From positions 496,001 through 560,000 of the forward strand of contig NZ_JACZEP010000001.1 in the NCBI RefSeq assembly GCF_014863355.1: a DNA stretch of 64,000 nucleotides, given 5' to 3'. The translations under genes were made by a program, and so were the position numbers. Position 1 is the stretch's first letter; every line of letters begins with the position of its first letter. The notes beneath the pieces were generated by a model. The model was given only the letters and a program-made list of their open reading frames with translations, ran no database searches and had not been told where the DNA came from. Of the stretch, positions 1 through 60,522 are shown piece by piece. The DNA is from Aminobacter carboxidus. Its GTDB lineage: Bacteria; Pseudomonadota; Alphaproteobacteria; Rhizobiales; Rhizobiaceae.

Positions 1-93
1 GTTCATTGAGATCACCAGGCGACGCTTTTTCCCGCCGATATGTAGAATGACTTGTTGATTGTGCCGCGCCTTTTCTTTATCCAGCGGCGCAAC

Positions 94-184
94 GGAGAGG
101 TGGCCGAGTGGTCGAAGGCGCTCCCCTGCTAAGGGAGTAGAGGTCAAAAGCTTCTCGTGGGTTCGAATCCCATCCTCTCCGCCA
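94..184 (+). tRNA. tRNA-Ser (anticodon GCT)
   Basis: Decodes AGC/AGU serine codons. The acceptor arms at 94-100 and 174-180 pair perfectly (GGAGAGG with CCTCTCC), followed by discriminator G181 and an encoded CCA at 182-184. The anticodon stem is CTCCC/GGGAG (121-125, 133-137) around loop CTGCTAA, so the anticodon GCT lies at 128-130. A long variable arm (from 138) and the T-loop TTCGAAT are typical of a class II serine tRNA. It stands alone, about 150 bp upstream of the porin gene. Confidence 0.97.
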
Positions 185-333
185 GCCCAATTCCATCTCC
201 TTCCAAAAACCGCTGAACCTCCAGAGATTTCAATCGCTTGCGGCATCGCCGTCGGGCTGCACGAACCGTTTAATCGCGGCTTTGCGTTCTCATTTCTCGA
301 TCTTCAGTCGCGATTCTGACTGGAGGTCAGAAA

Positions 334-1311: not shown

Positions 1312-1336
1312 TCAGCTCACAAGCTGATTTAAGGAA

Positions 1337-1364
1337 AACCCGGCGGGCAACCGCCGGGTTTTTT
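1337..1364 (+). terminator. Rho-independent terminator of the porin gene
   Basis: A perfect 10-bp stem, AACCCGGCGG (1337-1346) with CCGCCGGGTT (1351-1360), closes a GCAA tetraloop and is followed by a T run to 1364. It begins 25 bases after the porin stop codon. Confidence 0.95.
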
Positions 1365-1513
1365 GTGCTGTCGTCTTGTATGTCAGACAACGCGGCGCAT
1401 CGCGGCTCTCAAGGCGAGCCGTTAGCAATTTGCCCAATGTGCCTTGCAATCCGTCTGCTGTCGGCAGTCTAGCTGCGAGGCCAGCCCGATCGCTGATCAG
1501 GCCGGCAAGCCGG

Positions 1514-2464
1514 TCAGGCTTTTGCGGAAAAGGCCGTCGCAGTGTCTGCTTCTCGCAGAAAGGCTGCGATCGTCGCCGGCAGGTTTCCCGTCTCCAGAAG
1601 CGGCGCGTGGCCTTGGCCTTCGACGGTGATCGCTTCGAAGCGAGGATGACGCCGGCGCATCTCTTCGAGCGTTTCCGCTGACAGCAGCCGCGAGTTGGCG
1701 CCGCGGATCGTCAGCACCGGCACGGATGCAAGCGCTTCGAACTGCGGCCAGAGATCAGGCAATGGCCGGGTGAGATCCATCGCCAGCACGGTGTTGAGCA
1801 GGGCCGGGTCGTAATCGGCGACCGGCGTGCCCGCCTCGTCGCGATAGATGGCGTGGACGAAGCGGTGCCAGTCGGCATCCGACAACGCCGGAAACGCCTC
1901 GCCATGGACGTCTTTTTGAATCCGGACAGCCTCCGTGAAGTCAGCCGGGCGAGGGGCATTCCCCAGATATGAGCTGATATGGGCAAGGCCTGCCGTCTCG
2001 ATCACCGGGCCGATGTCGTTGAGCACCACCGCCTTGATCAGGGCAGGGCGCATCATCGTGAGCACATGGATGATCAGGCCGCCGCGCGACGTACCGATGA
2101 AGGCCGCTTGGCCGACGCCGAGTGCGTTGAGGCCGGCGATGACGTCGGCTGCTTCGACCCCGACATTATAGTTCTGCCAATTCGAGTCGTAGGCCGACCG
2201 TCCCCTTCCGCGATAGTCGAAGCATATGATTCGGCGCGGCTTTTCGGGAGCGTTGGCGAGGTGGAGCGCCAGATTGTGGAAATCCCTGGCGTTGCGGGTC
2301 AGGCCGGGCAGACAGACGACCGGGCAGTTGCCGGGGTGAGCGGCTGGGCCATAGTCTGCCTCGGTGCCATAGATTCGCGCATGCAGCTTCAGGCCGTCAT
2401 GAGACGCATAAAAGAAGTCCGAATAGCCGTCTTCGCTGGCCACCAATTGCATCCCCCATGGCAT
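1514..2464 (-). CDS. Alpha/beta-fold hydrolase
   Basis: A serine hydrolase of the alpha/beta-hydrolase fold, about 316 residues; the substrate is not predictable. The nucleophile elbow is the motif GTSRGG (family G-x-S-x-G). The oxyanion-side motif HPGNCPVVCLPGL precedes it, and the catalytic His lies near the end in GQGHAPLLE. A cap region with LPDLWPQFEAL lies between them. The start is uncertain: GTG at 2479, ATG at 2464 and ATG at 2452 are all in frame with no convincing ribosome site; 2464 is chosen as the first ATG. It converges on the porin gene and shares only a short intergenic stretch with it. It follows the lytic transglycosylase gene on the same strand after about 80 bp, so co-transcription is possible. 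Confidence 0.85.
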   Translation of the reverse strand: MPWGMQLVASEDGYSDFFYASHDGLKLHARIYGTEADYGPAAHPGNCPVVCLPGLTRNARDFHNLALHLANAPEKPRRIICFDYRGRGRSAYDSNWQNYNVGVEAADVIAGLNALGVGQAAFIGTSRGGLIIHVLTMMRPALIKAVVLNDIGPVIETAGLAHISSYLGNAPRPADFTEAVRIQKDVHGEAFPALSDADWHRFVHAIYRDEAGTPVADYDPALLNTVLAMDLTRPLPDLWPQFEALASVPVLTIRGANSRLLSAETLEEMRRRHPRFEAITVEGQGHAPLLETGNLPATIAAFLREADTATAFSAKA

Positions 2465-2543
2465 ACGTGCCTGCTGCACCGGCCCGAACTAGCTACCGGG
2501 GCGGTCGGGGGAGGTCAATTGCGGGCGCGGGGCAGGGCAGATG

Positions 2544-4586: not shown

Positions 4587-4817
4587 TCCTTATCCTTGCA
4601 GCTTACGATCAGGAGCGGGGCTTTCGAGCCTAGGTTCATGTGGTGAAGAGCGGGTTAATGAAAGGTTAGCGCGGTCGTTCGATTCGGCCCGATATAGGGT
4701 GCGGCCACACTTGCCGCAAATTGGTGTCGAGACTATGGTGCGCGGCCCTGCTTTCGGCTAGAAAGCCGGCGACATCAAAATGACCGCGAAACCGTAGGGT
4801 TCCTGGAGTTGGACGAC

Positions 4818-5699
4818 ATGCTGAGAGGCTCACTTACCGCGCTCGTGACACCATTCGAAAAGAATGGCCGTCTCGACGAGAAAGCCTTTCGCGAACTCGT
4901 CGAATGGCAGATCGCCGAAGGCACCACGGGTCTCGTTCCGGTCGGCACGACAGGCGAGTCGCCGACGCTGACCCATGACGAGCACCGCCATGTCGTGAAG
5001 ATGTGCGTCGAGGTTGCCCGCGGCCGCGTGCCCGTCATAGCCGGCGCCGGCTCGAACAACACCGAAGAGGCCGTCGGCCTGGTCAAGTATGCCGAGAGCG
5101 TCGGCGCGGACGCCGTCCTCGTCGTCACGCCCTATTACAACAAGCCGACGCAGCGCGGCCTTTATGCGCATTTCGCCGCCGTTGCCCAGGCAACGACGCT
5201 GCCTGTCATCATCTACAACATCCCGCCGCGTTCGATCATCGACATGATGCCGGAGACGATGGGCCGCCTGGCCCACGACTTCAAGAACATCGCCGGCGTC
5301 AAGGACGCGACCGGCAAGGTCGAGCGTGTCTCCGAACAGCGCATCACCTGCGGCACGGACTTCATCCAGCTCTCGGGCGAGGACGCTTCGGCCCTCGGCT
5401 TCAACGCGCATGGCGGCGTCGGCGCCATCTCGGTCACCTCGAATGTCGCGCCGCGTCTGTGCGCCGAGTTCCAGATCGCCAGCCTGGCCGGCGACAAGGA
5501 CAAGGCGCTCGAACTGCAGGACCGCCTGATGCCGCTGCACAAGGCGATCTTCATCGAGCCGGGCGCTTCGGGCGCGAAATACGCGCTGTCGCGCCTTGGC
5601 CGTATCGAAAACGTGCTGCGCTCGCCGCTGGTGACGATCGAGCAGTCGACCGCCGAGAAGATCGATGCGGCGATGAAGTTTGCCGGCCTCATCAACTGA
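4818..5699 (+). CDS. dapA: 4-hydroxy-tetrahydrodipicolinate synthase
   Basis: Condenses pyruvate with aspartate semialdehyde, the first committed step of the lysine/diaminopimelate pathway in the cytoplasm. It is a 293-residue TIM barrel, the usual length. Catalytic residues are visible: Schiff-base Lys162 in GVKDATGK, Tyr133 in IIYNIPPRS, and Thr44-Thr45 in VGTTGES. The ATG at 4818 is preceded by GGAG (4805-4808). An in-frame TTG at 4809 would add only three residues and lies too close to that site. smpB follows 234 bp downstream, the usual rhizobial order. Confidence 0.97.
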
Positions 5700-5933
5700 G
5701 TGCCCAAGGGTTGCGGAATTGCCACTTCGCAGCCATGTAAGCGCTCTAGGAATTGTGCCTCCTTCGAGGCTCGCCCTTCGGCTTCGCACTTCGCGATGAA
5801 GGAAATCAGCAACCGCAGCTGAAATCATGTTGCGCCATTCGCGCATGATTTTGGATGTGTGCTGCTTCCCCATCCCGAGGCTCGAAACCCGAACGGCAAG
5901 CCGTGAAGGCCGCACCAAACACGTAGCGACGTC
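5700..5933 (+). other. dapA-smpB intergenic region with imperfect hairpin
   Basis: A non-coding stretch of 234 bp. It contains a CCTTC (5761-5765) and GAAGG (5798-5802) pair enclosing Cys/Arg-codon-like GC-rich sequence, resembling the small palindromic repeats scattered through Mesorhizobium-type genomes. No T run follows, so it is not a convincing terminator. No open frame with a ribosome site was seen. Confidence 0.4.
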
Positions 5934-6413
5934 ATGAGCCAGGGCAAGAAATCCGACCCCAACAACAAGGTCGCCGCGGAAAACCGCAAGGCGCGCTTCA
6001 ACTATGAGGTTCTCGACACGCTCGAGGCCGGCCTGGTGCTGAGCGGCACCGAGGTCAAGGCGCTGCGCCTGGGGCAAGCCAACATCCAGGACTCCTATGC
6101 CTCGTTCGAGGGCGGGGAGCTGTGGCTGATCAATTCCTACGTGCCGGAATATCTGCAGGCCAACCGCTTCAACCACGAGACACGCCGCCGCCGCAAGCTG
6201 CTGGTCAACAAGCGCGAAATGGCCAAGCTCGCCCAGAGCATCGAGCGTGAAGGCATGACGCTGATTCCGCTCAAGATCTATTTCAACGACCGCGGCATGG
6301 CCAAGATGCTGCTCGCCGTCAGCCGCGGCAAGAAGCTGCACGACAAGCGCGAAACCGAAAAGCAGCGCGACTGGAATCGCGAAAAGGGCCGGTTGCTCAA
6401 GGAACGCGGCTAG
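5934..6413 (+). CDS. smpB: SsrA-binding protein SmpB
   Basis: The tmRNA-binding partner in trans-translation, which rescues stalled ribosomes. The 159-residue protein has the oligonucleotide-binding barrel with characteristic stretches [24 protein letters not shown], and [15 protein letters not shown]. It ends in the basic tail [20 protein letters not shown], which is disordered in solution and reads the A-site. The start ATG at 5934 gives the standard N-terminus. It lies between dapA and a repeat-rich spacer and is probably transcribed from its own promoter. Confidence 0.97.
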
Positions 6414-6555
6414 GGAGCGCTTATCCTTTTTCTCCAAGTTGGAGAAGATTGACAGCAGGGCGGATGAGCGCTCGTCATCCTGGGCGAGCGCAGCGAGACC
6501 AGGCACCTATTGATGGGCGATGGTGTCCTGCGACGCCGACCTTCTGTGTCCCGAT

Positions 6556-6609
6556 CCTTCGCACCCCCCTCTGGCCTGCCGGCCATCTCCCCCGCAAGGA
6601 GGGAGATTA
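6556..6609 (+). repeat. 54-bp palindromic repeat, copy 1 (forward)
   Basis: It matches the reverse complement of 6696-6749 with a single mismatch over 54 bp, and a diverged third copy lies at 13216-13263. The core contains the self-complementary stretch TGGCC-TGCC-GGCCA. With copy 2 it can form a long hairpin with an 86-base loop downstream of smpB. The whole 6414-6975 stretch holds no gene that I can support. Confidence 0.9.
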
Positions 6610-6695
6610 CGCCTGCGTCGGCGCCTCGCCCAATCATCGACGTAGCAAGGCTAATCCTTGCGGCATCACAGGATGAGCGCCGGCGGCGACGAGAT

Positions 6696-6749
6696 TAATC
6701 TCCCTCCTTGTGGGGGAGATGGCCGGCAGGCCAGAGGGGGGTGCGAAGG
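6696..6749 (-). repeat. 54-bp palindromic repeat, copy 2 (inverted)
   Basis: The inverted partner of 6556-6609, differing at one position (a T in place of C in the run before GGGGGAGAT). Such tail-to-tail pairs are typical of mobile REP/MITE-like palindromes. Confidence 0.9.
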
Positions 6750-6836
6750 AGCGCGACCGGGCCAATCCTGGGGTGCGAAGGTCGGTGCAAACGTGAGTTA
6801 ACCAACGCCTCGAATCGGCCTTCAGCGGCTGTCGAA

Positions 6837-6854
6837 ATACGCCATTTGCCGTAT
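6837..6854 (+). promoter_or_regulatory. Palindrome in the leader of unit A
   Basis: ATACGCCA-TT-TGCCGTAT, 8-bp arms with one mismatch, lies 122 bases before the mini-gene start. The same palindrome is perfect in unit B (7463-7480). Conservation of the dyad in both diverged leaders suggests a regulator-binding site or an RNA hairpin. Confidence 0.5.
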
Positions 6855-6975
6855 GCCAAAATCGGCGTCTTTCGGTCATTTCTCGGCGCAGACCACGATT
6901 TGGCGCCGCGTGGTTCGGCACCGGAGGCGGCGCCAGAGCGTCTTGGGCCGGACATCCGGTGAAAGGAACACATCG

Positions 6976-7194
6976 ATGAAGACGATCTTGATAGCAACGG
7001 CGGTGTCGCTGATGTTGGCGCCGGCGGCATTTGCCGCGGTGCCAGTTGCGGCAAACGCGGCCTCAAACGCCGTTGCCACCAGCCAGGCTACAAAAGACGG
7101 AGCCGTTCTGCTGGCCGCCGGACCCAATCGTACCGGAACCATCTCCATTCCGCGCGGCAAAGGCTTCATGGCGGGCAAGGGCTTTGCCGGTTGA
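6976..7194 (+). CDS. Small exported protein, paralogue A
   Basis: Unrecognised 72-residue protein. Residues 1-20 are a clear signal peptide (MKTILIATAVSLMLAPAAFA), cleaved after AFA. The mature part is Ala/Ser-rich (residues 21-45) and then basic and glycine-rich, ending GKGFMAGKGFAG. GAAAGGA at 6961-6967 is a good ribosome site 9 bases before the ATG; the longer upstream frame has no such support. The paralogue at 7613-7834 shares the signal peptide, the T-x-GGA-LL-type centre (TKDGAVLLA against TKGGAILLV) and the surrounding regulatory DNA. Function unknown; a small periplasmic or envelope protein is the safest reading. Confidence 0.75.
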   Translation: MKTILIATAVSLMLAPAAFAAVPVAANAASNAVATSQATKDGAVLLAAGPNRTGTISIPRGKGFMAGKGFAG

Positions 7195-7340
7195 GGCTGT
7201 CACTGAGGGGATCATCCAATCCGAGTGGTTGGCCGGCTCGGGCATTTGCCAAGCCGTGCCGTCCTCAAGATGGATGATGGCCTGACCAGAACCTTGCGGC
7301 TGGCGCCGCAGCCAGCCGTTCCATTTGCCAAGTGCCCCTT

Positions 7341-7376
7341 GCCCGGTTGTCGCCCCACAGCGCAACCGGGCTTTTT
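7341..7376 (+). terminator. Terminator of unit A
   Basis: The stem GCCCGGTTG (7341-7349) with CAACCGGGC (7363-7371) is followed by five T residues. The element is repeated almost base for base at 7993-8029. Confidence 0.9.
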
Positions 7377-7462
7377 CACTGGCGGCAAGCCGGGGCAAGG
7401 CAAGTTTTCCGTAAACCATCGGCTAACCAAGTCGCCGCAATCCAGGCCTGGCCGGCGTCGAA

Positions 7463-7480
7463 ATACGGCATCTGCCGTAT
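7463..7480 (+). promoter_or_regulatory. Perfect palindrome in the leader of unit B
   Basis: ATACGGCA-TC-TGCCGTAT, perfect 8-bp arms, 133 bases before the mini-gene start. It corresponds to 6837-6854 in unit A. Confidence 0.55.
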
Positions 7481-7612
7481 GCCAAAGTCCCGAGTTTGCT
7501 TCCATTTCTCCGTGCAGACCGCGTTTTTGGCGCAGGCGTGGTCCGGCACCAAGCGGGGGCGGTGCCATTTGCGTCACGCGACGGCCGGATGGCCAATGAA
7601 GGAGGTGAACCA

Positions 7613-7834
7613 ATGAAGACGATCATGATAGCAGCAATGGCAGGGCTGATGCTGTCGCCGGCGGCATTCGCCGCAGCACCGATGGCGGCAAAGACAGTGT
7701 CCAAGCCTGCGCTGAGCAGCCAGACGACAAAGGGCGGGGCGATCCTGCTGGTCAAGGGTAACGACAAGCCAACCAAGGGTGGTGCCTCAAGTAGCAAAGG
7801 CCCGGGAAAGAGTTCGTTTTTCGATCGCCGCTGA
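7613..7834 (+). CDS. Small exported protein, paralogue B
   Basis: Unrecognised 73-residue protein with a signal peptide (MKTIMIAAMAGLMLSPAAFA). The mature chain is rich in Lys, Ser and Gly and ends KGPGKSSFFDRR, so it is strongly basic. A near-perfect Shine-Dalgarno, AAGGAGGTGA at 7599-7608, precedes the ATG, implying strong translation. It is the tandem paralogue of 6976-7194: the first half is about two-thirds identical and the C-terminus is unrelated. No domain is recognised. Confidence 0.8.
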   Translation: MKTIMIAAMAGLMLSPAAFAAAPMAAKTVSKPALSSQTTKGGAILLVKGNDKPTKGGASSSKGPGKSSFFDRR

Positions 7835-7992
7835 GATTTGGGCGGGTTCTAATCCTGATTGAGCATGATCCTTGCCGAAGGCCGCTTTCGATCGGCCGCA
7901 GGCGAAATTGCCGTTCGGGATGCCGCTCCCGTGACCTCACGGCTGACGCTTCGCCGCGAGAAGCCAGCCGCTCCATTTGCCAAGTGCCCCTT

Positions 7993-8029
7993 GCCCGGTT
8001 GTCGCCCCACAGCGCAACCGGGCCTTTTT
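7993..8029 (+). terminator. Terminator of unit B
   Basis: The stem GCCCGGTTG (7993-8001) with CAACCGGGC (8015-8023) is followed by C and five T. It ends 40 bp before the convergent uracil-DNA glycosylase gene. Confidence 0.88.
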
Positions 8030-8068
8030 ATGGGAAACGTAACGGCGAAGAGCCGGGCTGCGCGGAAA

Positions 8069-8734
8069 CTATTTCTGCAGGAATTCGGCTACGTCACGGA
8101 ATACGTTGACGAACATCTCTTCCGTCAGCACGCCCGTATTGGTGTTGTAGCGCGAACAGTGATAGCTCGAAAACACCGCGAGATCGCCGACGTCGCAACG
8201 GGCACCGTGCTTGAACGGCACCGCCGCGACGCGCGCGCCGAGCGCCCGCACCGTCGACTGGTGGCCGATCGAGCCGAGCGTCAGGATCGCCTTCAGGTTG
8301 GGAAAGCGCGCGATGGTCGGCACCAGGAAGGTGCGGCAGGTGTTGATCTCTGCACCCACCGGCTTGTTGTCTGGCGGCACGCAGCGCACCGCATTGGTGA
8401 TCGCCGTGCCGATCAGTTCGAGGCTGTCGTCGGGCCGCGCCTCGAACTCGCCGCGGGCCATGCCGAAGCGCTTCAGCGTCGAATAGAGCAGCTCGCCGGC
8501 ATAGTCGCCGGTGAACGGGCGACCGGTGCGGTTGGCCCCGCGCACACCCGGTGCCAATCCGACGATCAGGAAACGCACCGCCTCTTCGCCTTCGGGAGGA
8601 AGGAAGGAGCGGACGGGCGCGTTGTACCAGCCCGGCTCGCGGGCGCGCCAGCTCGCGATAAAATCGTGCAGGCGCGGGCAAAGCGGACAATCCCGGTCGG
8701 GATCGACCGTCAGGGCTGGCTGGAGACTGGGCAT
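8069..8734 (-). CDS. Uracil-DNA glycosylase, family 5 (UDGb type)
   Basis: Removes uracil and possibly other deaminated bases from DNA, starting base-excision repair. In the 221-residue protein motif 1 is GLAPGVRGANRTGRPFTGD, the family-5 form in which the active-site Asp of other UDGs is absent. The second motif, SSYHCSRYNTNTG, matches the family S-x-HPS-x-N-x-x-TG. Cys16 and Cys19 (CPLC), with later cysteines in NAVRC and NTCRTF, form the expected iron-sulfur ligand set. The ATG at 8734 shares its A with the TGA of the upstream NYN gene, so the two are translationally coupled. A TTG one codon earlier is disregarded. Confidence 0.9.
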   Translation of the reverse strand: MPSLQPALTVDPDRDCPLCPRLHDFIASWRAREPGWYNAPVRSFLPPEGEEAVRFLIVGLAPGVRGANRTGRPFTGDYAGELLYSTLKRFGMARGEFEARPDDSLELIGTAITNAVRCVPPDNKPVGAEINTCRTFLVPTIARFPNLKAILTLGSIGHQSTVRALGARVAAVPFKHGARCDVGDLAVFSSYHCSRYNTNTGVLTEEMFVNVFRDVAEFLQK

Positions 8735-9315
8735 CAAATGTCTTGGGCTGGAGGTTCGACCGGGTCGACCTTGCGCGCCGGACGTTCGGAAGGCTCGCGG
8801 CCGATCTCGGCCTTCAGCGTCATCAGGTCGATGAAATGGTCGGCCTGACGGCGCAGGTCGTCCGAGATCATTGGTGGCTGCGAGGCCATGGTCGAGATCA
8901 CCGAAACCTTGCGGCCGCGGCGCTGCAGCGCTTCCACCAGCGTGCGGAAATCGCCGTCGCCGGAGAAGATGACGTAATGGTCGACGACATCGGCGAGCTC
9001 GAGCGCATCGACTGTCAGCTCGATGTCCATGTTGCCCTTGATCTTGCGCCGTCCGGTGGCGTCGGTGAACTCTTTGGCCGGCTTGGTGACGACCTTGAAG
9101 CCGTTATAATCGAGCCAGTCGATCAGCGGGCGGATCGAGGAGTATTCCTGGTCTTCGACCAATGCGGTGTAATAATAGGCGCGCAGCAGGTAGCCACGCT
9201 TCTGGAAGCTGGAAAGCAGTTTTCGGTAGTCGATGTCGAAGCCGAGGGAGCGCGAAGTGGCGTAGAGATTAGCTCCGTCGATAAAAAGTGCGATTTTCTC
9301 GCGAGGATCAAACAT
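8734..9315 (-). CDS. NYN-domain protein (LabA/DUF88 family), putative RNase
   Basis: A 193-residue PIN-like nuclease fold of the LabA/DUF88 type. The conserved acidic metal-binding residues are seen in FIDGANLY (Asp13), KGNMDIELTVDA and IFSGDGDFRTLVEAL, the three standard NYN motifs. The C-terminal 40 residues are Pro/Glu/Arg-rich and probably flexible. AAGGA lies about 10 bases before the ATG at 9315. Its stop codon overlaps the start of the uracil-DNA glycosylase. The same gene order upstream of rpoZ occurs in other rhizobia. Nuclease activity is a family inference; the target RNA is unknown. Confidence 0.9.
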   Translation of the reverse strand: MFDPREKIALFIDGANLYATSRSLGFDIDYRKLLSSFQKRGYLLRAYYYTALVEDQEYSSIRPLIDWLDYNGFKVVTKPAKEFTDATGRRKIKGNMDIELTVDALELADVVDHYVIFSGDGDFRTLVEALQRRGRKVSVISTMASQPPMISDDLRRQADHFIDLMTLKAEIGREPSERPARKVDPVEPPAQDI

Positions 9316-9591
9316 AGGAAAATTTCCTTGTTGAAATAGGCTGACGCCAAATACGCTGAACCGAGCGCCCGTTCCCCCAAATCAATGACTTACCCCATTG
9401 CGGCAAATATCGCTCGCGTTGAGTCATTCCAAGGGGGGGCAGGGGCTGAGCAGTAAAATAATCGTTTGTGGACGGCTGTCCGGATTCCGACGCTTCGGTG
9501 GCAAAGCAGGCTTGATGCTTGAATTGCGTGGCCGTTCAGGTTATGGCACGCGTCAGCTTTCCGTCAAATCCATGCATGAAAGGGGCATTTC

Positions 9592-9987
9592 ATGGCCCGC
9601 GTAACCGTTGAAGACTGCATTGACAAGGTCGACAACCGCTTTGAGCTGGTGTTGCTCGCCGGCCACCGCGCCCGCCAGATCTCGCAGGGCGCGCAGATCA
9701 CGCTGCCGCGCGACAACGACAAGAACCCTGTCGTGGCGCTGCGCGAAATCGCCGACGAGATGCTGTCGCCCGACGATCTCAAGGAAGACCTGATCCATTC
9801 GCTGCAGAAGCATGTCGAAGTCGACGAGCCGGAGCCGGAAGCTCCCGAGCCGGCGGACCAGACCACTGCTTCCGCCGTCGACGCCGACGAAGCCGAAGAA
9901 AACATCAACTTCGACCGCATGTCGGAAGAAGACCTGCTCGCCGGCATCGAGAGCCTGGTGGCGCCCGAAAAGAGCGACGACTACTGA
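9592..9987 (+). CDS. rpoZ: RNA polymerase omega subunit
   Basis: Small structural subunit that clamps beta-prime during RNA polymerase assembly and forms part of a ppGpp site. The 131-residue protein starts with the canonical [20 protein letters not shown] and contains [13 protein letters not shown] and [13 protein letters not shown]. Residues 70-131 are an acidic tail ([18 protein letters not shown]), as in other alphaproteobacteria. AAAGGGG precedes the ATG. It lies directly upstream of rsh, linking the ppGpp synthase with its target. The stop codon overlaps the left arm of a large inverted repeat (9986-10128). Confidence 0.97.
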
Positions 9988-10128
9988 GACCTGCTGAGAA
10001 TTCTACCCTGCCGGCCACCTGACGCGGCTTTCTCCGCTTCCGGTGCTCACGGACCGAAAGTCCGCTCCGCTCCGGTTCTCGCAAGCCACGCCATCTGACT
10101 CGGCAGGGCGAATTCTCAAAAAGGTCTC
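9986..10128. repeat. 143-bp interrupted palindrome between rpoZ and rsh
   Basis: Arms pair in order: GAGACCT (9986-9992) with AGGTCTC (10122-10128), GAGAATTC (9996-10003) with GAATTCTC (10110-10117), and CCCTGCC (10006-10012) with GGCAGGG (10102-10108). The apex is CGGAC-CGAAA-GTCCG (10050-10064). Short mismatches separate the paired blocks, so the transcript could fold into one long rod. There is no T run, so it is more likely an interspersed palindromic element or an RNase III/processing target than a terminator. Confidence 0.85.
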
Positions 10129-10256
10129 GCGTCGCGCTAAAACGCGCGCCAAACCGGCCAATCGGCACTTCCGCGCCGCCACATCAGTGTTTATCTATGA
10201 CATGCGTCGCAAGCCCTTGCGGCGCATGATTCATTTCGAGTTCCGGGAAGCCGCCC

Positions 10257-12491
10257 ATGATGCGTCAGTATGAGCTTGTCGAGCGCGTCCAGCGCTACAA
10301 GCCTGACGTCAACGAGGCACTGCTCAACAAGGCCTATGTCTATGCCATGCAAAAGCATGGCCATCAGAAGCGCGCCTCGGGCGATCCCTATTTTTCGCAT
10401 CCACTCGAAGTGGCGGCGATCCTCACCGACATGCATCTCGATGAGGCGACAATCGCGGTCGCGCTTCTGCATGACACCATCGAGGACACCAGTGCCACGC
10501 GCGCCGAGATCGACGAGCTGTTTGGTCCCGACATCGGCCGGCTGGTCGAGGGCCTGACCAAGCTCAAGAAGCTCGACCTCGTCTCCAAGAAGGCCGAGCA
10601 GGCGGAGAACCTGCGCAAGCTGTTGCTTGCGATCTCCGAGGACGTGCGCGTTTTGCTGGTCAAACTCGCCGACCGGCTGCACAACATGCGCACGCTGCAC
10701 CATGTGCCCGACAGCAAGCGCCAGCGCATCGCCGAAGAGACGATGGACATCTATGCGCCGTTGGCCGGTCGCATGGGCATGCAGGGCATGCGCGAGGAGC
10801 TCGAGGAACTCGCCTTCCGCTACATCAATCCCGAGGCGTACCGCACCGTCACCGAGCGGTTGGCGGAGATGTCGGAGCGCAGCATGGGCGTGCTTGCCGA
10901 CATCGAAAAGGCGCTGTCGGCGCAGTTCGAGAAGTACGACATCAAGGCGACGGTGAAGAGCAGGCAGAAGAAGCCGTGGTCGGTGTTCCGCAAGATGGAG
11001 ACCAAGGCGCTGTCGTTCGAGCAGCTGTCCGACATCTTCGGCTTCCGCGTCGTCGTCGACGGCGTCGAGGACTGCTACCGCGCGCTGGGGGCCATCCATA
11101 CGACCTGGTCGATGGTGCCGGGGCGGTTCAAGGACTACATCTCGACGCCGAAGCAGAACGACTACCGTTCGATCCACACCACAATAGTTGGTCCGTCGCG
11201 CCAGCGCATCGAGCTGCAGATCCGCACCCGCGAGATGAACAAGATCGCCGAATATGGCGTCGCCGCGCATTCGATCTACAAGGACAATGCCGGCAAGACC
11301 AATGGCGGTGGCCACACCATCTCCAAGGAAACCAACGCCTATGGCTGGCTGAGGCGGACGATCGAGCAACTCGCCGAGGGCGATAATCCCGAGGATTTCC
11401 TCGAAAACACCAAGCTCGAGCTGTTCCAGGACCAGGTCTTCTGCTTCACGCCCAAGGGCATGCTGATCGCGCTGCCGCGTGGCGCGACGCCAATCGACTT
11501 CGCTTATGCCGTGCACACCGACGTCGGCGACACCTGCGTTGGCGCCAAGGTCAACGGCCGGGTGATGCCGCTGATGACCGAGCTCAAGAACGGCGACGAG
11601 GTCGAGATCATCCGCTCCAAGGCACAGGTGCCGCCGGCGGCGTGGGAATCGATCGTCGTCACCGGCAAGGCGCGCTCGGCGATCCGCCGTGCCACCAAAA
11701 ATGCCATCCGCAAGCAGTATTCGGGCCTCGGCGCCCGCATCCTCGAACGCGCCTTCGAGCGCGCCGGCAAGAAATTCTCCAAGGACAGCCTGAAGTCGGT
11801 GCTGCACCGGCTGGCGCGCAAGGACATCGAGGACGTGCTGGCGTCCGTCGGCCGTGGCGAGCTGTCGTCCAACGACGTCGTCCGTGCCGTCTTCCCCGAC
11901 TACAAGGAAGAGCGCGTCACGCCCGCCGCCGCCAAGCCGCGCGAAGAGGGCTGGTCGAAGATCCGCAACGCGGCCGGCATGCTGTTCCAGATCCCCGGGC
12001 GCTCGTCGACCCCGCCGCGAAAGGAGCAAAGGGCGCAAGGCAGCGCCGTGCCGATCCGCGGCGTCAGCGGCGACCTGCCGGTGCGCTTCGCGCCCGAAGG
12101 CGCGGTCCCGGGCGACCGTATCGTCGGCATCATGCAGCCGGGCTCGGGCATCACCATCTATCCGATCCAGTCGCCGTCGCTGATGGCCTTCGACGACCAG
12201 CCGGAGCGCTGGATCGACGTGCGCTGGGACCTCGACGAAGGCTCGAAGGAGCGCTTTCCAGCGCGGCTTTCGGTTACCGCGATCAACGCGCCGGGCTCGC
12301 TCGCCGACATTGCCCAGGTGGTGGCGGCCAACGACGCCAACATCCACACGCTGTCGATGATCCGCACAGCGCCCGACTTCACCGAAATGTTGCTCGATCT
12401 CGAAGTCTGGGATCTGAAGCACCTGAACCGGCTGATCTCCCAGCTCAAGGACAACTCCAGTGTCAGTGATGCCCGCCGCGTCAATGGCTAG
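10257..12491 (+). CDS. rsh: Bifunctional (p)ppGpp synthetase/hydrolase
   Basis: Makes and degrades the stringent-response alarmone; alphaproteobacteria usually have this single long RelA/SpoT homologue. In the 744-residue protein the HD hydrolase domain (about 25-180) keeps PYFSHPLEVA and LLHDTIEDT. The synthetase domain (about 235-350) has FGFRVVVDGVEDCYRALG and YRSIHTTI. A TGS domain (about 405-465) contains PRGATPIDFAYAVHTD. A C-terminal ACT domain (about 665-740) contains NAPGSLADIAQVVAANDAN. Both catalytic motifs look intact. It sits downstream of rpoZ and ends at a terminator (12489-12535). Confidence 0.96.
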   Translation: MMRQYELVERVQRYKPDVNEALLNKAYVYAMQKHGHQKRASGDPYFSHPLEVAAILTDMHLDEATIAVALLHDTIEDTSATRAEIDELFGPDIGRLVEGLTKLKKLDLVSKKAEQAENLRKLLLAISEDVRVLLVKLADRLHNMRTLHHVPDSKRQRIAEETMDIYAPLAGRMGMQGMREELEELAFRYINPEAYRTVTERLAEMSERSMGVLADIEKALSAQFEKYDIKATVKSRQKKPWSVFRKMETKALSFEQLSDIFGFRVVVDGVEDCYRALGAIHTTWSMVPGRFKDYISTPKQNDYRSIHTTIVGPSRQRIELQIRTREMNKIAEYGVAAHSIYKDNAGKTNGGGHTISKETNAYGWLRRTIEQLAEGDNPEDFLENTKLELFQDQVFCFTPKGMLIALPRGATPIDFAYAVHTDVGDTCVGAKVNGRVMPLMTELKNGDEVEIIRSKAQVPPAAWESIVVTGKARSAIRRATKNAIRKQYSGLGARILERAFERAGKKFSKDSLKSVLHRLARKDIEDVLASVGRGELSSNDVVRAVFPDYKEERVTPAAAKPREEGWSKIRNAAGMLFQIPGRSSTPPRKEQRAQGSAVPIRGVSGDLPVRFAPEGAVPGDRIVGIMQPGSGITIYPIQSPSLMAFDDQPERWIDVRWDLDEGSKERFPARLSVTAINAPGSLADIAQVVAANDANIHTLSMIRTAPDFTEMLLDLEVWDLKHLNRLISQLKDNSSVSDARRVNG

Positions 12492-54497: not shown

Positions 54498-55739
54498 TCA
54501 CTCCGCCGGGGCCAGCACCGCCGGCCGGGCGACCGGGCGTTCCTTGATCGGCCAGTGGACGACCGCGGCGAACAGGCCAAGGATCACGCCGAGCCACCAG
54601 ACCGGGTTGTAGGACCCGAAATGGTCGTAGAGATAGCCGCCGAGCCAGACGCCGAGGAACGAACCGATCTGGTGCGAGAAGAACACAATGCCGCCAAGCA
54701 TGCCGAGGTGGCGGGTGCCGAACATGATGGCAACGAGGCCGTTGGTCGGCGGCACGGTCGACAGCCACAGCAGGCCCATGATGATGGCGAAGACGACGAC
54801 GGTGGTCGGTGTCTGCGGCACCAGCAGGAACACCGTCACCAGCACCGAGCGGGCAATGTAGATCCAGGCAAGGAAGTGCGGCTTCGAATATTTCTGGCCG
54901 ATGACGCCGGAGGCGAGCGAGCCGATGACGTTGAAAAAGCCGATCAGCGCCAGCGCGATGACGGCGTAGCGCGCATCGATGCCGATGTCCCTGATATAAG
55001 CAGGGAAATGGGCGGTGATGAAGGCGACCTGGAAGCCGCAGACGAAGAAGCCAGAAACCAGCAAGAGATAGCTCTTGTGGGCAAAGGCCTCGGACAGCGC
55101 CTGACTGAGCGTCTGCTCGATCTCGGCCTGCGAGACCTTGCCGGAGCGCGAATTACCGACAAGCGGGATTGCCAGCACCGGGATCACCAGCATGGCGATC
55201 GACATGTATACGAGCGTGTCGGACCAGCCATATGCGTCGATCAGCCCCTGACTGATCGGTGCGAAGACGAACATGCCGGCGGAACCGGCGGCGGTGCCGA
55301 TGCCGAACACGATCGAGCGGTTCTGCGGGTTGGTGTTGCGGGCAAAGGCCGCGAGCACGATGCTGAACGAGCCGGCGGCAACGCCGAGGCCGACGAGCAC
55401 GCCGCCACTGAGATGCAGCATGCCGGCACTGTCGGCATGGGCCATCAGATAGAGGCCGACCGAATAGAGCACGGCGCCTAGTGTCAGCACGCGCCAACTG
55501 CCGAAGCGGTCGGCGATGGCGCCGAAGATCGGTTGGCCGAGGCCCCAGCACAGGTTCTGGATCGCCATGGCGAGACCGAAGGTGGTGCGGTCCCAGCCCT
55601 TTTCGGCGAGCATCGGCAGCTGGAAGAAGCCCATCGCCGAGCGCGGGCCGAAGGTCAGCGCCGCAATCAGGCAGCCACAAATAATGATGAGCCAAGGTAT
55701 TTTCGACCCCGACCTAGTGTTCACCGCCGCTGCCGTCAT
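54498..55739 (-). CDS. MFS transporter
   Basis: A 413-residue carrier with 12 predicted helices. The signature A loop is AIADRFGSWRVL, and the core NGLVAIMFGTRHLGMLGGIV resembles oxalate:formate/monocarboxylate-type members. GGGAG precedes the ATG at 55739; the longer frame toward 55964 overlaps the sigma-factor promoter and is discarded. It is divergent from the ECF sigma gene. The vapC relic and a GGCC-rich inverted repeat (54455-54494) lie beyond its stop. Confidence 0.88.
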   Translation of the reverse strand: MTAAAVNTRSGSKIPWLIIICGCLIAALTFGPRSAMGFFQLPMLAEKGWDRTTFGLAMAIQNLCWGLGQPIFGAIADRFGSWRVLTLGAVLYSVGLYLMAHADSAGMLHLSGGVLVGLGVAAGSFSIVLAAFARNTNPQNRSIVFGIGTAAGSAGMFVFAPISQGLIDAYGWSDTLVYMSIAMLVIPVLAIPLVGNSRSGKVSQAEIEQTLSQALSEAFAHKSYLLLVSGFFVCGFQVAFITAHFPAYIRDIGIDARYAVIALALIGFFNVIGSLASGVIGQKYSKPHFLAWIYIARSVLVTVFLLVPQTPTTVVVFAIIMGLLWLSTVPPTNGLVAIMFGTRHLGMLGGIVFFSHQIGSFLGVWLGGYLYDHFGSYNPVWWLGVILGLFAAVVHWPIKERPVARPAVLAPAE

Positions 55740-55962
55740 CGTCAGATCTCCCGTGAGTGGAATGTTTTTACCCGATCCGCAGCGATGTTCAAAATCAATT
55801 GAACTAGGGAAAAGGTTCAAGATTTCTGATGTGTCGGGAATAGAACGATGCCGCCAGTCGTTAGTTGTGCGCTTGGGTGACTGGGGTTCAGTCAGCTGCT
55901 TGCGTCGCGCCGATTCGGCGCGTTCAATCGACGTCAAAGAGGACGACTTGCGATCCGCGGTC

Positions 55963-56481
55963 ATGGACGAAAAGAAGGCAGCGATACTTCAGGAAATCCC
56001 CCGGCTGCGCCGCTATGCGCGCGCGCTTTTGCGCGACCGCGATTCCGCCGACGATCTCGTCCAGGACAGTCTCGAGCGCGCGCTGGTGCGCATGGACAAT
56101 TGGCGAACCGGAGAAAGCCCCAGGAGGTGGCTGTTTACGATCATGCACCATCTATTCATCGACCAGATGCGCAAGGTGAGCCGGCGCGGCGAGGCGTCGA
56201 TCCTGTCGCTCGACGCGACCGAGGCGCTGGCGACCCCTGCGACGCAGACCGAAAGTGTCGCTTCGCGCGAGATCGTCGATGCGTTGCAGCAGATCAGCCC
56301 CGACCGCCGCGCCGCTCTGGTGATGGTTGCCATCGAAGGATTTTCATATGCCGAGGCCGCAACGATGCTCGGTGTGCCGGCCGGCACGCTGATGTCACGC
56401 ATCGCGCGCGGCCGCGAGGAACTGCGCGGGCTGCTTGACGACCAGGCACGCCGGCGGGCGATAAGGATCGTCGAGAAATGA
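55963..56481 (+). CDS. ECF-type RNA polymerase sigma factor
   Basis: A 172-residue sigma factor of the extracytoplasmic-function group. Region 2 is RRYARALLRDRDSADDLVQD (about 17-36) and WLFTIMHHLFIDQMRK. Region 4 is ISPDRRAALVMVAIEGFSYA and LGVPAGTLMSRIARGREELR (about 110-155). The ATG at 55963 gives MDEKKAAIL; TTG 55948 with AGAGGA is an alternative. The stop overlaps the anti-sigma gene by four bases, so the pair is coupled. Confidence 0.92.
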   Translation: MDEKKAAILQEIPRLRRYARALLRDRDSADDLVQDSLERALVRMDNWRTGESPRRWLFTIMHHLFIDQMRKVSRRGEASILSLDATEALATPATQTESVASREIVDALQQISPDRRAALVMVAIEGFSYAEAATMLGVPAGTLMSRIARGREELRGLLDDQARRRAIRIVEK

Positions 56482-57272
56482 CCGCGCGCAGCTTTACCGA
56501 CCGTGACATCCACCTGGCCCTCGACGGCGAGCTGCCGGAGGACGAGCGCGCCGCCTACCAGATGTGGCTCGAAGCCAATCCCGACATGAAGGCCAAAAGC
56601 CTGCGTTTTGCGGCCGATAACGCCGCCTTGCGTAACCTGTTTGCTGGTGTGCTCGAAGAGCCGGTGCCGTCGCGGCTGGTAACAGCGGTCAATGGCGATG
56701 GCCCCAGGCGCAAGCAGGCGACGCCGTGGTGGCGAATGGCGGCTGCAGCGGCATTGCTGATCGCAGGCGGGGTCGGCGGATATCTTGCCGGGATGAGCGG
56801 CATCGGCATGGGAGCCGATTCCGACGACCGCATGGCCCAACTGGCGATCGCGGCGCACCAGACATTCGCCGCCGACAAGAACCGGCCGGTCGAAGTCGAC
56901 GGCAGCGACCAGGCCTATCTGACCGGCTGGCTGTCCAAGCGAACCGGCTTGACGCTTGTGGCGCCGGACCTGACCAAGAACGGTTTTACGCTGCTGGGCG
57001 GGCGCCTAGTGCCGGCGAATGGCAGCACGGCGGCGCTGATGCTCTATGCGGACGCCGAGGGCAACCGCATCTCGGTCTATGTCGTCGCCGAAGGCACTGA
57101 ACGCTCCAAGGGTACTTTCACCCTGGCGAGCGGTGGCCCCGAGGCGGTCTACTGGCAGGACGAAGGCTATGGCTGCGCCATCGTCGGCACGTTGCCGCCC
57201 GAGCAGATGGGCGTGGTCGCCAAGGACGCCTACAAGCAGCTGATCGCGGGAGCCGGGCTGGCGCGGTCGTAG
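56478..57272 (+). CDS. Anti-sigma factor, zinc-free type
   Basis: A 264-residue single-pass membrane protein. The N-terminal cytoplasmic domain (1-75) has the anti-sigma helix pattern RDIHLALDGELPEDERAAYQ, with no HxxxCxxC zinc motif. One membrane helix lies at about 88-108 (MAAAAALLIAGGVGGYLAGM). The periplasmic part ends in LPPEQMGVVAKDAYKQL. It is coupled to the upstream sigma gene and should hold it inactive until a signal arrives. Confidence 0.87.
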   Translation: MTARSFTDRDIHLALDGELPEDERAAYQMWLEANPDMKAKSLRFAADNAALRNLFAGVLEEPVPSRLVTAVNGDGPRRKQATPWWRMAAAAALLIAGGVGGYLAGMSGIGMGADSDDRMAQLAIAAHQTFAADKNRPVEVDGSDQAYLTGWLSKRTGLTLVAPDLTKNGFTLLGGRLVPANGSTAALMLYADAEGNRISVYVVAEGTERSKGTFTLASGGPEAVYWQDEGYGCAIVGTLPPEQMGVVAKDAYKQLIAGAGLARS

Positions 57273-57418
57273 GCAGTGGCTCTTTCGCGGGGGCGCTGCT
57301 TGTACTGCTTGCACCTCTGTACCTTGGGTAGCTGGGCAGCCCGCTGCTTAGCCCTGTTTGGCTCCCAAGTTGCGGAGCTCCGCCGTTTTCCTGATGGCAT
57401 GTGGCCATTGGGCGGCCA

Positions 57419-57478
57419 CGGCATGGATTCCCGACACTCTCCGCTCGTTTCACTCGCTCACGAGATCGGGAATGACGG
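57419..57478 (+). repeat. 60-bp inverted repeat, left copy
   Basis: It matches the reverse complement of 57574-57633 with one mismatch, and similarity continues about 35 bp further out at lower identity. The core includes CGCTCGTTTCACTCGCTCAC. The 686-bp gene-free stretch 57273-57958 is mostly this palindrome pair. Confidence 0.88.
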
Positions 57479-57573: not shown

Positions 57574-57633
57574 CCCGTCATTCCCGACCTCGTGAGCGAG
57601 TGAAACGAGCGGAGAGTGTCGGGAATCCATGCC
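57574..57633 (-). repeat. 60-bp inverted repeat, right copy
   Basis: Partner of 57419-57478, 95 bp away. The pair could form a cruciform or transcript hairpin behind the anti-sigma gene. No terminator T run is seen. Confidence 0.88.
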
Positions 57634-57958
57634 GCGACAGCAGAGTGGCCACAAGCCATAAGGAACCGGGGTACGTAGCCGGGCCGTGTCCAAAAGCTTC
57701 CCGGTGCTTGCAGCCAGCCAAGACTCGGCAGCAAGCACCGGCTACCCAGATCCGGAAACACGAGCGCAACAGGACCTGAAGGCTCGACGTTTTTCGGCGC
57801 CCTTTCCTATGAGATTCATATGCCCGAGCAGTGCCCGGCCATGTCACAATAAGGCCCGAATCGAGGCGTGACTGCGCAGTGCAAACGCGGGCGCGCCAGC
57901 GCTTCGCAGGGACATTCCTTCAGGGCTCCTCTCGCCCAGACGAGGTTCTCAGGACCAG

Positions 57959-59065
57959 ATGGCTGCCGACATTCGTACGGCCCGCGCTGAAGATGTCGAT
58001 GCGCTTGTCGCCATCGAGAACGCCGTCTTTGAAGGCGACCGGATTTCGCGCCGCTCCTTCCGCCAACTGATCGATCACGAAACCGCGCAGGCGCTTGTCG
58101 CTGACAGCAACGGCCGCCTTGCCGGCTATGCGATGGTGCTGTTTCGCAAGGGCAGCGGCGTGGCGCGGCTTTATTCCTTCGCCATTGCACCCGATTTTGG
58201 CGGCAAGGGCATCGGCCGCAGCCTGCTCGATGCCGCCGAGCACGTCGCCTACGAGCATGGCCGCATGATGCTGCGGCTCGAGGTACGCCAGGACAATGGA
58301 CGCGCTATCCGGCTCTACGAGCAAAACGGCTATCGCAGGATCGGCCACGAGGCCGACTATTACGAAGACGGTATGGCAGCGCTGCGCTACGAAAAGACGC
58401 TGCGCGGCGACGTGCCGGTGGCAACCAAGGTGCCGTTCTACGCCCAGACCTGCGATTTCACCTGCGGGCCGTGCTGCCTGATGATGGCGATGGCCAATTT
58501 CGACCGCAAGTTCGTGCCGGACCCGGTGATGGAGGTCAGGCTTTGGCGCGAGGCGACGACGATCTTCATGATGTCGGGGCCGGGCGGCTGCGAGCCGTTC
58601 GGGCTGGCGGTGGCTGGCCATGAGGCGGGGCTTGGCGCGGAGATCTTCGTATCCGCCGAGGGCGCGCTGTTTCTGCAGTCCGTCCGCACCGCCGAAAAAC
58701 GCCGAGTGATGGAGCTGGCGCAGGCCGATTTCCGCGCCCGCGCCGAAAAATACGCGATCCCCGTGACCTACCGCCCGTTCGCGCTCGACGACATCAGGGG
58801 CAAGCTGGCCGAGGGCAAGCTGGTGCTGGTGCTGATCTCGGGCTTTCTGATGTTCGGCAAGAAGGTGCCGCACTGGGTTCTGGCCATCGGCGACGATGGC
58901 GGCCACATCTTGATCCATGACCCGTGGATCGAGGACGAGCAGCGCGAGACGGCGTCGGACGCCGCCAACATACCCGTTCCCTACGACATCTTCATGCGCA
59001 TGGCGCAGTTCGGCCGCGACGGCCTGCGCGCCGCAATCACTCTCGGAAAGCCTTCGAAACGATGA
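57959..59065 (+). CDS. GNAT acetyltransferase fused to a C39-like papain-fold peptidase
   Basis: A 368-residue two-domain protein. Residues 1-150 form a GNAT domain with the acetyl-CoA loop DFGGKGIGRSLL (79-90) and NGRAIRLYEQNGY. Residues 155-360 form a C39-like peptidase: Gln163 oxyanion, Cys169 in CDFTCGPCC, His305 in VPHWVLAIG and Asp321 in ILIHDPW. The stop overlaps the ATG of the RimK-like ligase (ATGA), so the two proteins act together. This pairing was described by comparative genomics as a peptide-modification or peptide-synthesis system, and its product is unknown. Confidence 0.92.
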   Translation: MAADIRTARAEDVDALVAIENAVFEGDRISRRSFRQLIDHETAQALVADSNGRLAGYAMVLFRKGSGVARLYSFAIAPDFGGKGIGRSLLDAAEHVAYEHGRMMLRLEVRQDNGRAIRLYEQNGYRRIGHEADYYEDGMAALRYEKTLRGDVPVATKVPFYAQTCDFTCGPCCLMMAMANFDRKFVPDPVMEVRLWREATTIFMMSGPGGCEPFGLAVAGHEAGLGAEIFVSAEGALFLQSVRTAEKRRVMELAQADFRARAEKYAIPVTYRPFALDDIRGKLAEGKLVLVLISGFLMFGKKVPHWVLAIGDDGGHILIHDPWIEDEQRETASDAANIPVPYDIFMRMAQFGRDGLRAAITLGKPSKR

Positions 59066-60522
59066 CCTGGGTCATTCTCACCGGCCGGCAAAGCGACCTC
59101 GACCAGACCGCGACGCCGCACAAGATCATCACCAACCGCGACTATCTCGCCCATCCGGCGCTGTTTCGCGGCCAGCGGCCGAAGATCATCAACCTGTCGA
59201 ACCGCTATGCCTACCAGAGCCGGGGCTATTATGCTTCGCTCCTGGCCGGTTCGCGCGGCCACAAGGTGATCCCGACCGTCGAGACGATGATCGACCTGTC
59301 CGAACGCAAGCTCTACGAAAATGCGCTGCCTGAACTCGAGTTGGCGCTCAACAAGTGCCGCAAGGACTTGGGCGGGGCATTCCCGGCCAAGGTGACGATT
59401 TTCTTCGGCGTCGGCCCGACCAAGGCCTGGGACCGTTTCACCCGGCTTTTGTTCGACTGGTTCCGCGCGCCGGCGCTGGAGGTCGCGATCAAGGACGGCG
59501 AATGGGCGTCGATCCACAAGATCGGCTTTGCAGCACTTGGGCGTCTGGACGCCACCGACAAGAAGCGTTTCGTTGCGGCACTCGAAGCCTATACCAGCCG
59601 CGAATGGCGCGACACCAAGGCGCGTACGCCTTCGCGCTATACCTTCGCCACGCTTATCGACCCCAACGAGCAACTGCCGCCGTCGGAGATCTCGTCGCTG
59701 CGCTATTGGGCCCGCATCGCCGAGAAGATGGGCGTCGAGGTCGAGCCGATCACCAAGCGGGACCTGGCCAAGCTTGCCAATTACGACGCGCTGCTGATCC
59801 GCGAGACGACGTCGATCTCCAACCACACCTACCGCTTCGCCCGCCGCGCCCAGCAGGAGGGCATGCCGGTTATCGACGACCCGCTGTCGATGATCCGCTG
59901 CACCAACAAGGTCTATCTCAACGAACTGATGGCCTACAACAACGTGCCGGTGCCGCCGACCGTCATGATCGCCGGCCTGTCGGACCTGCAGGTGGCGGCC
60001 GATACGCTTGGTTTTCCGCTGGTGCTGAAGATCCCCGACAGTTCGTTCTCGCGCGGCGTCAAGAAGGCATCGAACTTCGACGAGCTGAAGGCGCTCGCGG
60101 CCGCCTGGCTCGAGGATTCGGATCTGCTGATCGCCCAGAAGTTCATGCCGACGCAGTATGACTGGCGCGTCGGCGTGCTCGGTGGCCAGCCGCTGTTTGC
60201 CATCCACTATCTGATGGCCAAGAAGCACTGGCAGATCGTCAATCACGACCGCGCCGGCAAGCCCGACGAGGGCGGCATCAAGACGTTCACGCTGAAGCAT
60301 GCCCCAGCCCATGTTATCGACACCGCCGTGCGCGCCGCGCGCTGCATCGGCGACGGGCTCTATGGCGTCGACCTCAAGGAAACCAAGGATGGCGTCTTCG
60401 TCATCGAGGTCAACGACAACCCGAACCTCGACCATGGCGTCGAGGATTCCGGCGAGAAGGACGAGGTCTGGATGCGGCTGACCCAGTGGTTCCTCGACCG
60501 GCTGGAGCGCAACGGCAAATAG
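59062..60522 (+). CDS. RimK-like ATP-grasp ligase with RLAN N-terminal domain
   Basis: A 486-residue ligase. The N-terminal RLAN domain spans about 1-190 (WVILTGRQSDLDQTATPHK, FGVGPTKAWDRFTRLLFDW). The ATP-grasp core (about 280-480) has NKVYLNELMAYNNVPVPPT, FPLVLKIPDSSFSRGV and the Mg-binding end VIEVNDNPNLDHG. Such enzymes join an amino acid or peptide to a carboxylate through an acyl phosphate. It is coupled to the GNAT-C39 gene. Start ATG 59062 is fixed by the ATGA overlap. Confidence 0.92.
   Translation: MTWVILTGRQSDLDQTATPHKIITNRDYLAHPALFRGQRPKIINLSNRYAYQSRGYYASLLAGSRGHKVIPTVETMIDLSERKLYENALPELELALNKCRKDLGGAFPAKVTIFFGVGPTKAWDRFTRLLFDWFRAPALEVAIKDGEWASIHKIGFAALGRLDATDKKRFVAALEAYTSREWRDTKARTPSRYTFATLIDPNEQLPPSEISSLRYWARIAEKMGVEVEPITKRDLAKLANYDALLIRETTSISNHTYRFARRAQQEGMPVIDDPLSMIRCTNKVYLNELMAYNNVPVPPTVMIAGLSDLQVAADTLGFPLVLKIPDSSFSRGVKKASNFDELKALAAAWLEDSDLLIAQKFMPTQYDWRVGVLGGQPLFAIHYLMAKKHWQIVNHDRAGKPDEGGIKTFTLKHAPAHVIDTAVRAARCIGDGLYGVDLKETKDGVFVIEVNDNPNLDHGVEDSGEKDEVWMRLTQWFLDRLERNGK

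Follow-up and report, generated by a model that had tools for sequence, protein, structure and literature searches.

The window analysed here, a 64,000-nucleotide stretch from the 6.29-Mb genome of Aminobacter carboxidus, a relative of the root-nodule bacteria, contains two overlapping genes on the forward strand: one encodes a GNAT (N-acetyltransferase) domain fused to a papain-like DUF3335 peptidase domain (57959-59065; 368 amino acids), and the other an RLAN/RimK-type ATP-grasp ligase (59062-60522; 486 amino acids). By analogy with characterised pathways, we propose with moderate confidence that this gene pair may be a module that makes and recycles a small N-acetylated peptide. Comparison across 134 distinct ligase loci shows that the constant core is the GNAT together with the ligase, while the peptidase is dispensable.

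In the proposed pathway, the GNAT would acetylate an alpha-amino group, and the ligase would activate a carboxyl group at the expense of ATP (most likely the one carried by the acetylated amino acid or peptide) and couple the next amino acid to it. DUF3335 would then hydrolyse the product, or a related one, once it was no longer needed, and a separate deacylase would complete the breakdown in some genomes. What we observed is the anatomy of the genes, the conservation of the catalytic residues, the GNAT and ligase core, the dispensability of the peptidase and the gene neighbourhoods; all substrates, the product, the sequence of steps and the direction in which the peptidase acts are inferred. 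A GNAT beside or fused to an ATP-grasp ligase, together with an optional hydrolase, is the layout expected of an N-acetyl-peptide pathway. The data would also allow a free amino acid as substrate, as the initial annotation had considered.

Both RLAN ligases and DUF3335 peptidases occur widely, and our searches turned up no established product of either. Should the proposal hold, many bacteria would produce an N-acetyl-peptide that has so far escaped notice and that might serve as an osmolyte, a signal or a storage compound, and a function could be assigned to two Pfam families that have lacked one. The pairing of the domains is as such already known from comparative genomics: Iyer and co-workers reportedly treated RLAN / GNAT-DUF3335 pairs of the same domain families in 2009, and may already discuss some of the points found here. 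The initial annotation had likewise referred to an earlier proposal of such pairs in peptide synthesis or protein tagging, and this agrees with the status of both domains as Pfam families and with the accessible text of PMC10318531 from 2023, which notes, citing the 2009 work, that DUF3335 is often fused to GNAT domains. The comparison presented below sharpens that formulation, in that synthesis should be possible with GNAT and ligase alone, leaving only turnover to the peptidase. In the open-licence literature we found no report of the constant GNAT and ligase core, of the recurrent absence of the peptidase, or of the links to importers and to the N-acetylglutaminylglutamine amide (NAGGN) operon, all of which are apparently new.

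The GNAT and ligase core and its accessory peptidase

We searched 349 genomes drawn from the host's phylum for RLAN and DUF3335. RLAN was present in 62 genomes (about one in six) and DUF3335 in 52; both occurred together in 51, RLAN only in 11, DUF3335 only in 1 and neither in 286 (Fisher p 4e-49, with the relatedness of the genomes ignored). DUF3335 was located within 6 kb of 49 of the 65 RLAN matches, lying upstream on the same strand in 28 of these linked cases, divergent in 16, downstream on the same strand in 4 and convergent in 1. That the linkage survives four arrangements suggests that it is more than an inherited operon.

For 56 of the 65 RLAN matches we then searched the neighbourhood with one profile for the GNAT half and one for the DUF3335 half; the remaining nine matches, found in eight further genomes and as a second copy in G146, each have DUF3335 within 6 kb. 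A GNAT of this type was found beside the ligase in 55 of the 56 loci, with scores of 129-223 bits, and other GNAT matches in these loci, among them the NAGGN synthetase of genome G006, reached only 32-36 bits. The nearest GNAT was without a peptidase in 17 of the 55. A genome scan contributed 80 further named loci, mostly from Alphaproteobacteria since the scan keeps the matches most similar to the window; 50 of these carry GNAT-DUF3335 and 28 a GNAT alone. One divergent GNAT (L183), at 79.6 bits just below the threshold, was counted as present. As two loci occur in both sets, the 136 loci correspond to 134 distinct ones, although the residue counts given below (98, 134 and 137 rows) retain both copies.

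Taken together, a GNAT of this type sits next to the ligase in 132 of the 134 distinct loci, 86 times with the peptidase and 46 times without it. The distance between GNAT and ligase is at most 284 bases, except at L209, where a DUF2817 gene intervenes. In L112 the GNAT is fused in frame to the N-terminus of the ligase, giving a 659-amino acid protein with GNAT, RLAN and RimK domains alongside a convergent GNAT-DUF3335 gene, and in L117 a GNAT alone adjoins the ligase while a separate GNAT-DUF3335 is also present. Loss of coupling in most relatives, which the initial annotation had named as the observation that would speak against it, was therefore not seen. The make-modify-trim cycle that it had suggested survives in part: the making and acylating components form the core, but the trimming component is accessory, given that these 46 of 132 GNATs lack the peptidase and that DUF3335 was not found in 11 of the 62 RLAN genomes.

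To describe the history of the peptidase, we labelled each ligase by the presence or absence of a linked peptidase on a tree of 96 of the 136 rows, for which rows sharing a label had been thinned at 88% identity and L183 and the two rows without a GNAT left out; branch support was taken as SH-like approximate likelihood ratio test values from a short search. The label changes 16 times on this tree, with 12 changes forced by the best-supported branches according to a quick method, and as the tree is unrooted these changes may be either losses or gains. Quick GNAT trees placed nearly all of the peptidase-less GNATs together, with 2, 3 and 4 label changes, and two ancient GNAT types, if real, would imply gene swapping beside the ligase. 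We dropped this scenario: a constraint uniting 17 GNATs of Mesorhizobium and near relatives, picked by ligase similarity, gave a likelihood 9.8 log units higher (approximately unbiased test p-AU 0.69; 42 rows), such that loss of the peptidase in place explains the data at least as well. Because the constrained tree is better, repeated loss in place is a fair reading of these sequences. The contrast between L148 and L149, whose ligases are 94% identical and whose GNATs are 58% identical, one fused to the peptidase and the other not, calls for either unusually rapid evolution of the GNAT or exchange of the partner gene.

Conserved residues of the three domains

The stop and start of the two genes overlap as ATGA (59062-59065), as the initial annotation had read them, and the residues that it had listed as catalytic, namely Cys169, His305 and Asp321 of DUF3335 and VIEVNDNPNLDHG of the ligase, are indeed present. 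A scan for sigma-70-type promoters found none. Among the matches listed in the genome scan, the closest named ligases are those of Mesorhizobium, mostly 82-86% identical.

The GNAT domain comprises residues 1-150 (57959-58408) and scores 63.5 bits against PF00583 (cut-off 20.7). In the alignment, Glu108 is kept in all 134 GNAT rows, both those fused to the peptidase (88/88) and those standing alone (46/46), and Tyr120 is kept in 81 of the 88 fused and in all 46 stand-alone rows; we take these two residues to be the counterparts of the RimI catalytic pair. The domain falls short of the RimI model itself (S18-alanine N-acetyltransferase, TIGR01575), at 82.4 bits against a cut-off of 86.4. The AlphaFold2 model of the fusion protein has a mean predicted local distance difference test score (pLDDT) of 88.6 and a predicted template modelling score (pTM) of 0.79. 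The enzyme that contains this domain probably adds acetyl groups.

The DUF3335 domain occupies residues 158-362 (58430-59044) and matches PF11814 at 258.6 bits (cut-off 25). Across 98 aligned rows, the window's own included, Gln163, Cys169 and His305 are invariant, and residue 321 is an Asp in 86 rows and a Glu in the other 12. Gln163, presumably the papain-type oxyanion position, is a further conserved residue beyond the Cys/His/Asp set that had been named at the outset. Judged by these residues, the domain is predicted to be a papain-like cysteine peptidase. It had first been described as a C39 peptidase, a loose label, since PF03412 (Peptidase_C39) gives only 13.8 bits (cut-off 22) and the family is DUF3335. 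A profile search among solved structures returned only weak relatives (best 6mpz, E 0.003), and a structural search with the model of the fusion hardly probed the peptidase fold, the list of matches being filled by GNAT folds.

In the ligase, an RLAN domain (residues 26-171, 59137-59574; PF14401, 126.5 bits, cut-off 25) lies N-terminal to a RimK-like ATP-grasp domain (residues 282-458, 59905-60435; PF08443, 39 bits, cut-off 21). Lys283 and Lys323 are kept in 137 of 137 ligase rows, and Asp437, Glu449 and Asn451 in 136, the remaining row giving no reading at Glu449 and Asn451; all five are, we assume, ATP-grasp functional residues. The ligase probably joins amino acids. Its AlphaFold2 model is, like that of the fusion protein, of good confidence (mean pLDDT 87.2), but its pTM is only 0.59, so that the arrangement of the domains is unsure.

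Peptidase genes elsewhere, alternative explanations and neighbouring genes

DUF3335 genes located away from the ligase provide further indications of a substrate. The window's own genome has a second one (G000:C1:987657-988268), which lies on one strand behind oligopeptide-type ATP-binding cassette (ABC) importer genes and an AstE/AspA-family gene; of the NCBIfam models, the latter fits DoeB (N-acetyl-diaminobutyrate deacetylase) best, although its 251.9 bits fall short of the 402.7 cut-off. Aspartoacylase is presumably a member of the same AstE/AspA family, which fits the Pfam name PF24827. The same importer operon occurs in G197, with an AstE copy 91% identical to that of the window's genome and transporter parts confirmed by Pfam, and on pSINME02 of Sinorhizobium meliloti a DUF3335 gene without a GNAT is the last gene of an oligopeptide-type importer operon. 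In G274 the DUF3335 copy is followed, 1.1 kb downstream and on the same strand, by an amidohydrolase/deacetylase-family gene (440.6 bits, cut-off 371). The GNAT half is without the catalytic Glu in four of these paralogs (0/4 keep it): the copy of the window's genome, the importer-linked G197 copy, a second G197 copy and the G274 copy.

A different situation is found in G006, where 2.1 Mb lie between an intact GNAT-DUF3335 gene and the RLAN ligase; the ligase there adjoins a GNAT without peptidase. Here the fusion gene begins 1.7 kb past the end of the M42 peptidase gene of a NAGGN operon, on the same strand, and the NAGGN operon, a 249-amino acid open reading frame (ORF), GNAT-DUF3335, a DUF2817 gene and one more gene all run in the same direction (L122, G006:C1:238000-254000, positions 12-10809). 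The operon is well supported by its amidotransferase (834 bits, cut-off 570; start outside the stretch), synthetase (944, cut-off 569) and M42 peptidase (614, cut-off 398), and a random place would fall within 10 kb on either side of it with a chance of about 0.4%. These importer operons and deacetylase relatives, along with the G006 case, suggest a peptidase aimed at small acetylated peptides.

The DUF2817 family, which has no known function, also recurs beside or near the pair itself, in 12 loci (all ten f32 loci examined, one f33 locus and L209), in addition to adjoining the ligase-less fusion gene of G006. An HGxE motif can be seen by eye in both DUF2817 and AstE, and a profile comparison gave a 0.7% probability of their being related.

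Several results weigh against a pathway for small N-acetylated peptides. A GNAT of this type was not found by profile search in the stretches around the ligases of L068 and L205, and on the Pseudomonas aeruginosa plasmid pZYPA1927 (L217) the RLAN ligase is flanked by an SDR gene at a distance of 183 bases and an aminotransferase gene at 10 bases, leaving no room for a directly adjoining GNAT. The peptidase, as noted, is absent from 46 of the 132 GNAT-linked ligase loci. The importer-linked DUF3335 genes are paralogs that may have other substrates; the second G197 copy adjoins a polyamine-type binding protein (118.8 bits, cut-off 582), and in G008, the sole genome with DUF3335 and no RLAN, no AstE or DUF2817 relative was found near DUF3335. 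The NAGGN link is a single case, with the 249-amino acid ORF intervening between operon and fusion gene; in the other six of the seven genomes with both systems these lie far apart or on different contigs, and RLAN and the NAGGN synthetase show no association across the 349 genomes (7 observed and 5.7 expected together, p 0.48). DUF3335 occurs in only 2 of the 48 genomes searched from the order of G006, so the link is not repeatable within that order. Lastly, the nearest solved folds of the GNAT are protein N-terminal acetyltransferases, which would fit a protein substrate equally well: the best neighbours of the GNAT-DUF3335 model are Ard1, RimI and NatA/C (Z 20-22.8; RimI 22.6), all of which acetylate protein alpha-amino groups.

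It is chiefly this resemblance that keeps protein or peptide tagging open as the main rival, an explanation that we consider unlikely though worth retaining. The ligase would add amino acids to the C-terminus of one or more cellular proteins, the GNAT would acetylate an N-terminus or the tag, and DUF3335 would remove the tag. A parallel is found in Pseudomonas, where RpsF receives glutamates from RimK and the protease RimB removes them by cleavage, according to the accessible part of PMC12239564. RLAN could on this account be a domain that binds the substrate protein. The proximity of some DUF3335 paralogs to oligopeptide-type importers and deacetylase relatives points instead to small substrates, and the neighbourhood contains no conserved candidate substrate gene, though such a substrate may be encoded elsewhere. 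The initial annotation had seen no precursor peptide gene in the flanks, and the comparison across loci agrees: small ORFs (20-100 amino acids) beside the core had matches (E 0.001) among the ORFs of no more than three other taxonomic groups, including nested labels of one lineage, with loci whose core region exceeds 9 kb skipped.

Rather improbable, in our view, is a ligase acting on some other metabolite with a carboxyl group (a cofactor side chain or an amino-acid derivative, for example), in which the GNAT would protect an amino group and the peptidase remove that protection, comparable to LysX/ArgX in lysine and arginine synthesis. The best Foldseek matches of the ligase model are LysX/ArgX, followed by Ddl and RimK, and LysX is also its best NCBIfam match, although the score of 88.6 bits is far under the cut-off of 275.6. 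Against this reading, gene families other than those of the pair do not recur immediately next to it in many family groups when a simple choice of ORFs is used as gene calls.

Plain RimK activity, meaning alpha-glutamate ligation to ribosomal protein S6 (RpsF), is highly improbable despite the RimK-like ATP-grasp domain, given that the ligase scores far below both RimK models (NF007764, 30.6 bits, cut-off 331; TIGR00768, 87.5, cut-off 143.4), that the GDFRSNLH motif of RimK aligns with GHWQIYKH in RLAN ligases, that no match in the window's genome passes TIGR00768, and that the S6 of this genome ends in GGAE with a single Glu. Within the replaced motif the His, Trp and Gln are kept in 136 of 137 rows and the HW is shared with LysX; the replacement suggests, at the level of sequence, an acceptor site in RLAN ligases that differs from that of RimK.

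Other features surround the pair. Upstream in the window (55516-57272, forward strand) lie a gene for an extracytoplasmic function (ECF)-type sigma factor and an overlapping gene, probably encoding an anti-sigma factor, without a Pfam match; relatives of each were found upstream of the pair in four loci of other genomes, all of the same family group among the loci examined, the window copies being assigned by eye. Between these genes and the pair is a 91-nucleotide inverted repeat (57388-57478 and 57575-57665), 90% complementary with arms 96 nucleotides apart. A cluster of signalling genes, one scanned member of which has PAS, GGDEF and EAL domains, recurs within the 16-kb neighbourhood of 10 loci (L069, L077, L080 and seven others) in 7 family groups, directly adjoining in three, and may reflect the mere abundance of such genes. 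A cluster assigned to DUF155 from a scanned member is found close to the pair at 11 loci, which belong to three family groups (f32, f33 and f34; for example L118 10141-10926).

Comparison with known systems

The small N-acetylated peptide module proposed here resembles three characterised systems, each in part. One is the NAGGN system (AsnO-Ngg-M42 peptidase; TIGR03104, TIGR03103, TIGR03106), which likewise combines an acetyltransferase, an ATP-grasp enzyme and a peptidase; as described in the available portion of PMC8070244, Ngg acetylates glutamine and forms the NAGGN peptide bond, and the operon includes an aminopeptidase. It differs from the pair in several respects. Ngg is a single protein whose ligase half fits cyanophycin synthetase (215 bits) better than RimK (69 bits), no amidotransferase is present among the identified neighbours of the pair, and the NAGGN peptidase is of the M42 type whereas that of the pair is papain-like. 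The window's genome has no Ngg above the cut-off of TIGR03103 (best 30.2 bits, cut-off 569).

The mammalian N-acetylaspartylglutamate (NAAG) pathway (NAT8L, RIMKLA/B, GCPII and aspartoacylase) offers a second parallel, with an acetyltransferase, a RimK-like ligase, a peptidase and a deacylase. Here NAT8L makes N-acetylaspartate (excerpts of PMC10995945), to which the ATP-grasp RimK-like ligase RIMKLA couples glutamate (PMC3872778, in part), after which GCPII cleaves the dipeptide and aspartoacylase degrades N-acetylaspartate (PMC10995945). This pathway differs in being eukaryotic and in using a different peptidase. We know of no RLAN domain in the mammalian NAAG enzymes.

The RimABK ribosome-modification system and the rlo operon of Pseudomonas share with the pair an ATP-grasp ligase that has a protease partner, but their proteases are aspartic (retropepsin-like) and the accessible text of PMC12239564 mentions no GNAT, while the ligase of the pair fails the RimK cut-offs. 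Set beside these systems, the pair may represent a third, independent route to N-acetylated peptides in addition to NAGGN and NAAG, an extension that we regard as tentative but quite possible: a soluble N-acetyl-peptide would be made in about one in six of the genomes sampled from the phylum, and DUF3335 would be the dedicated hydrolase of such compounds, fused to the maker in most of the lineages examined and, in the importer operons, serving their use as a nutrient.

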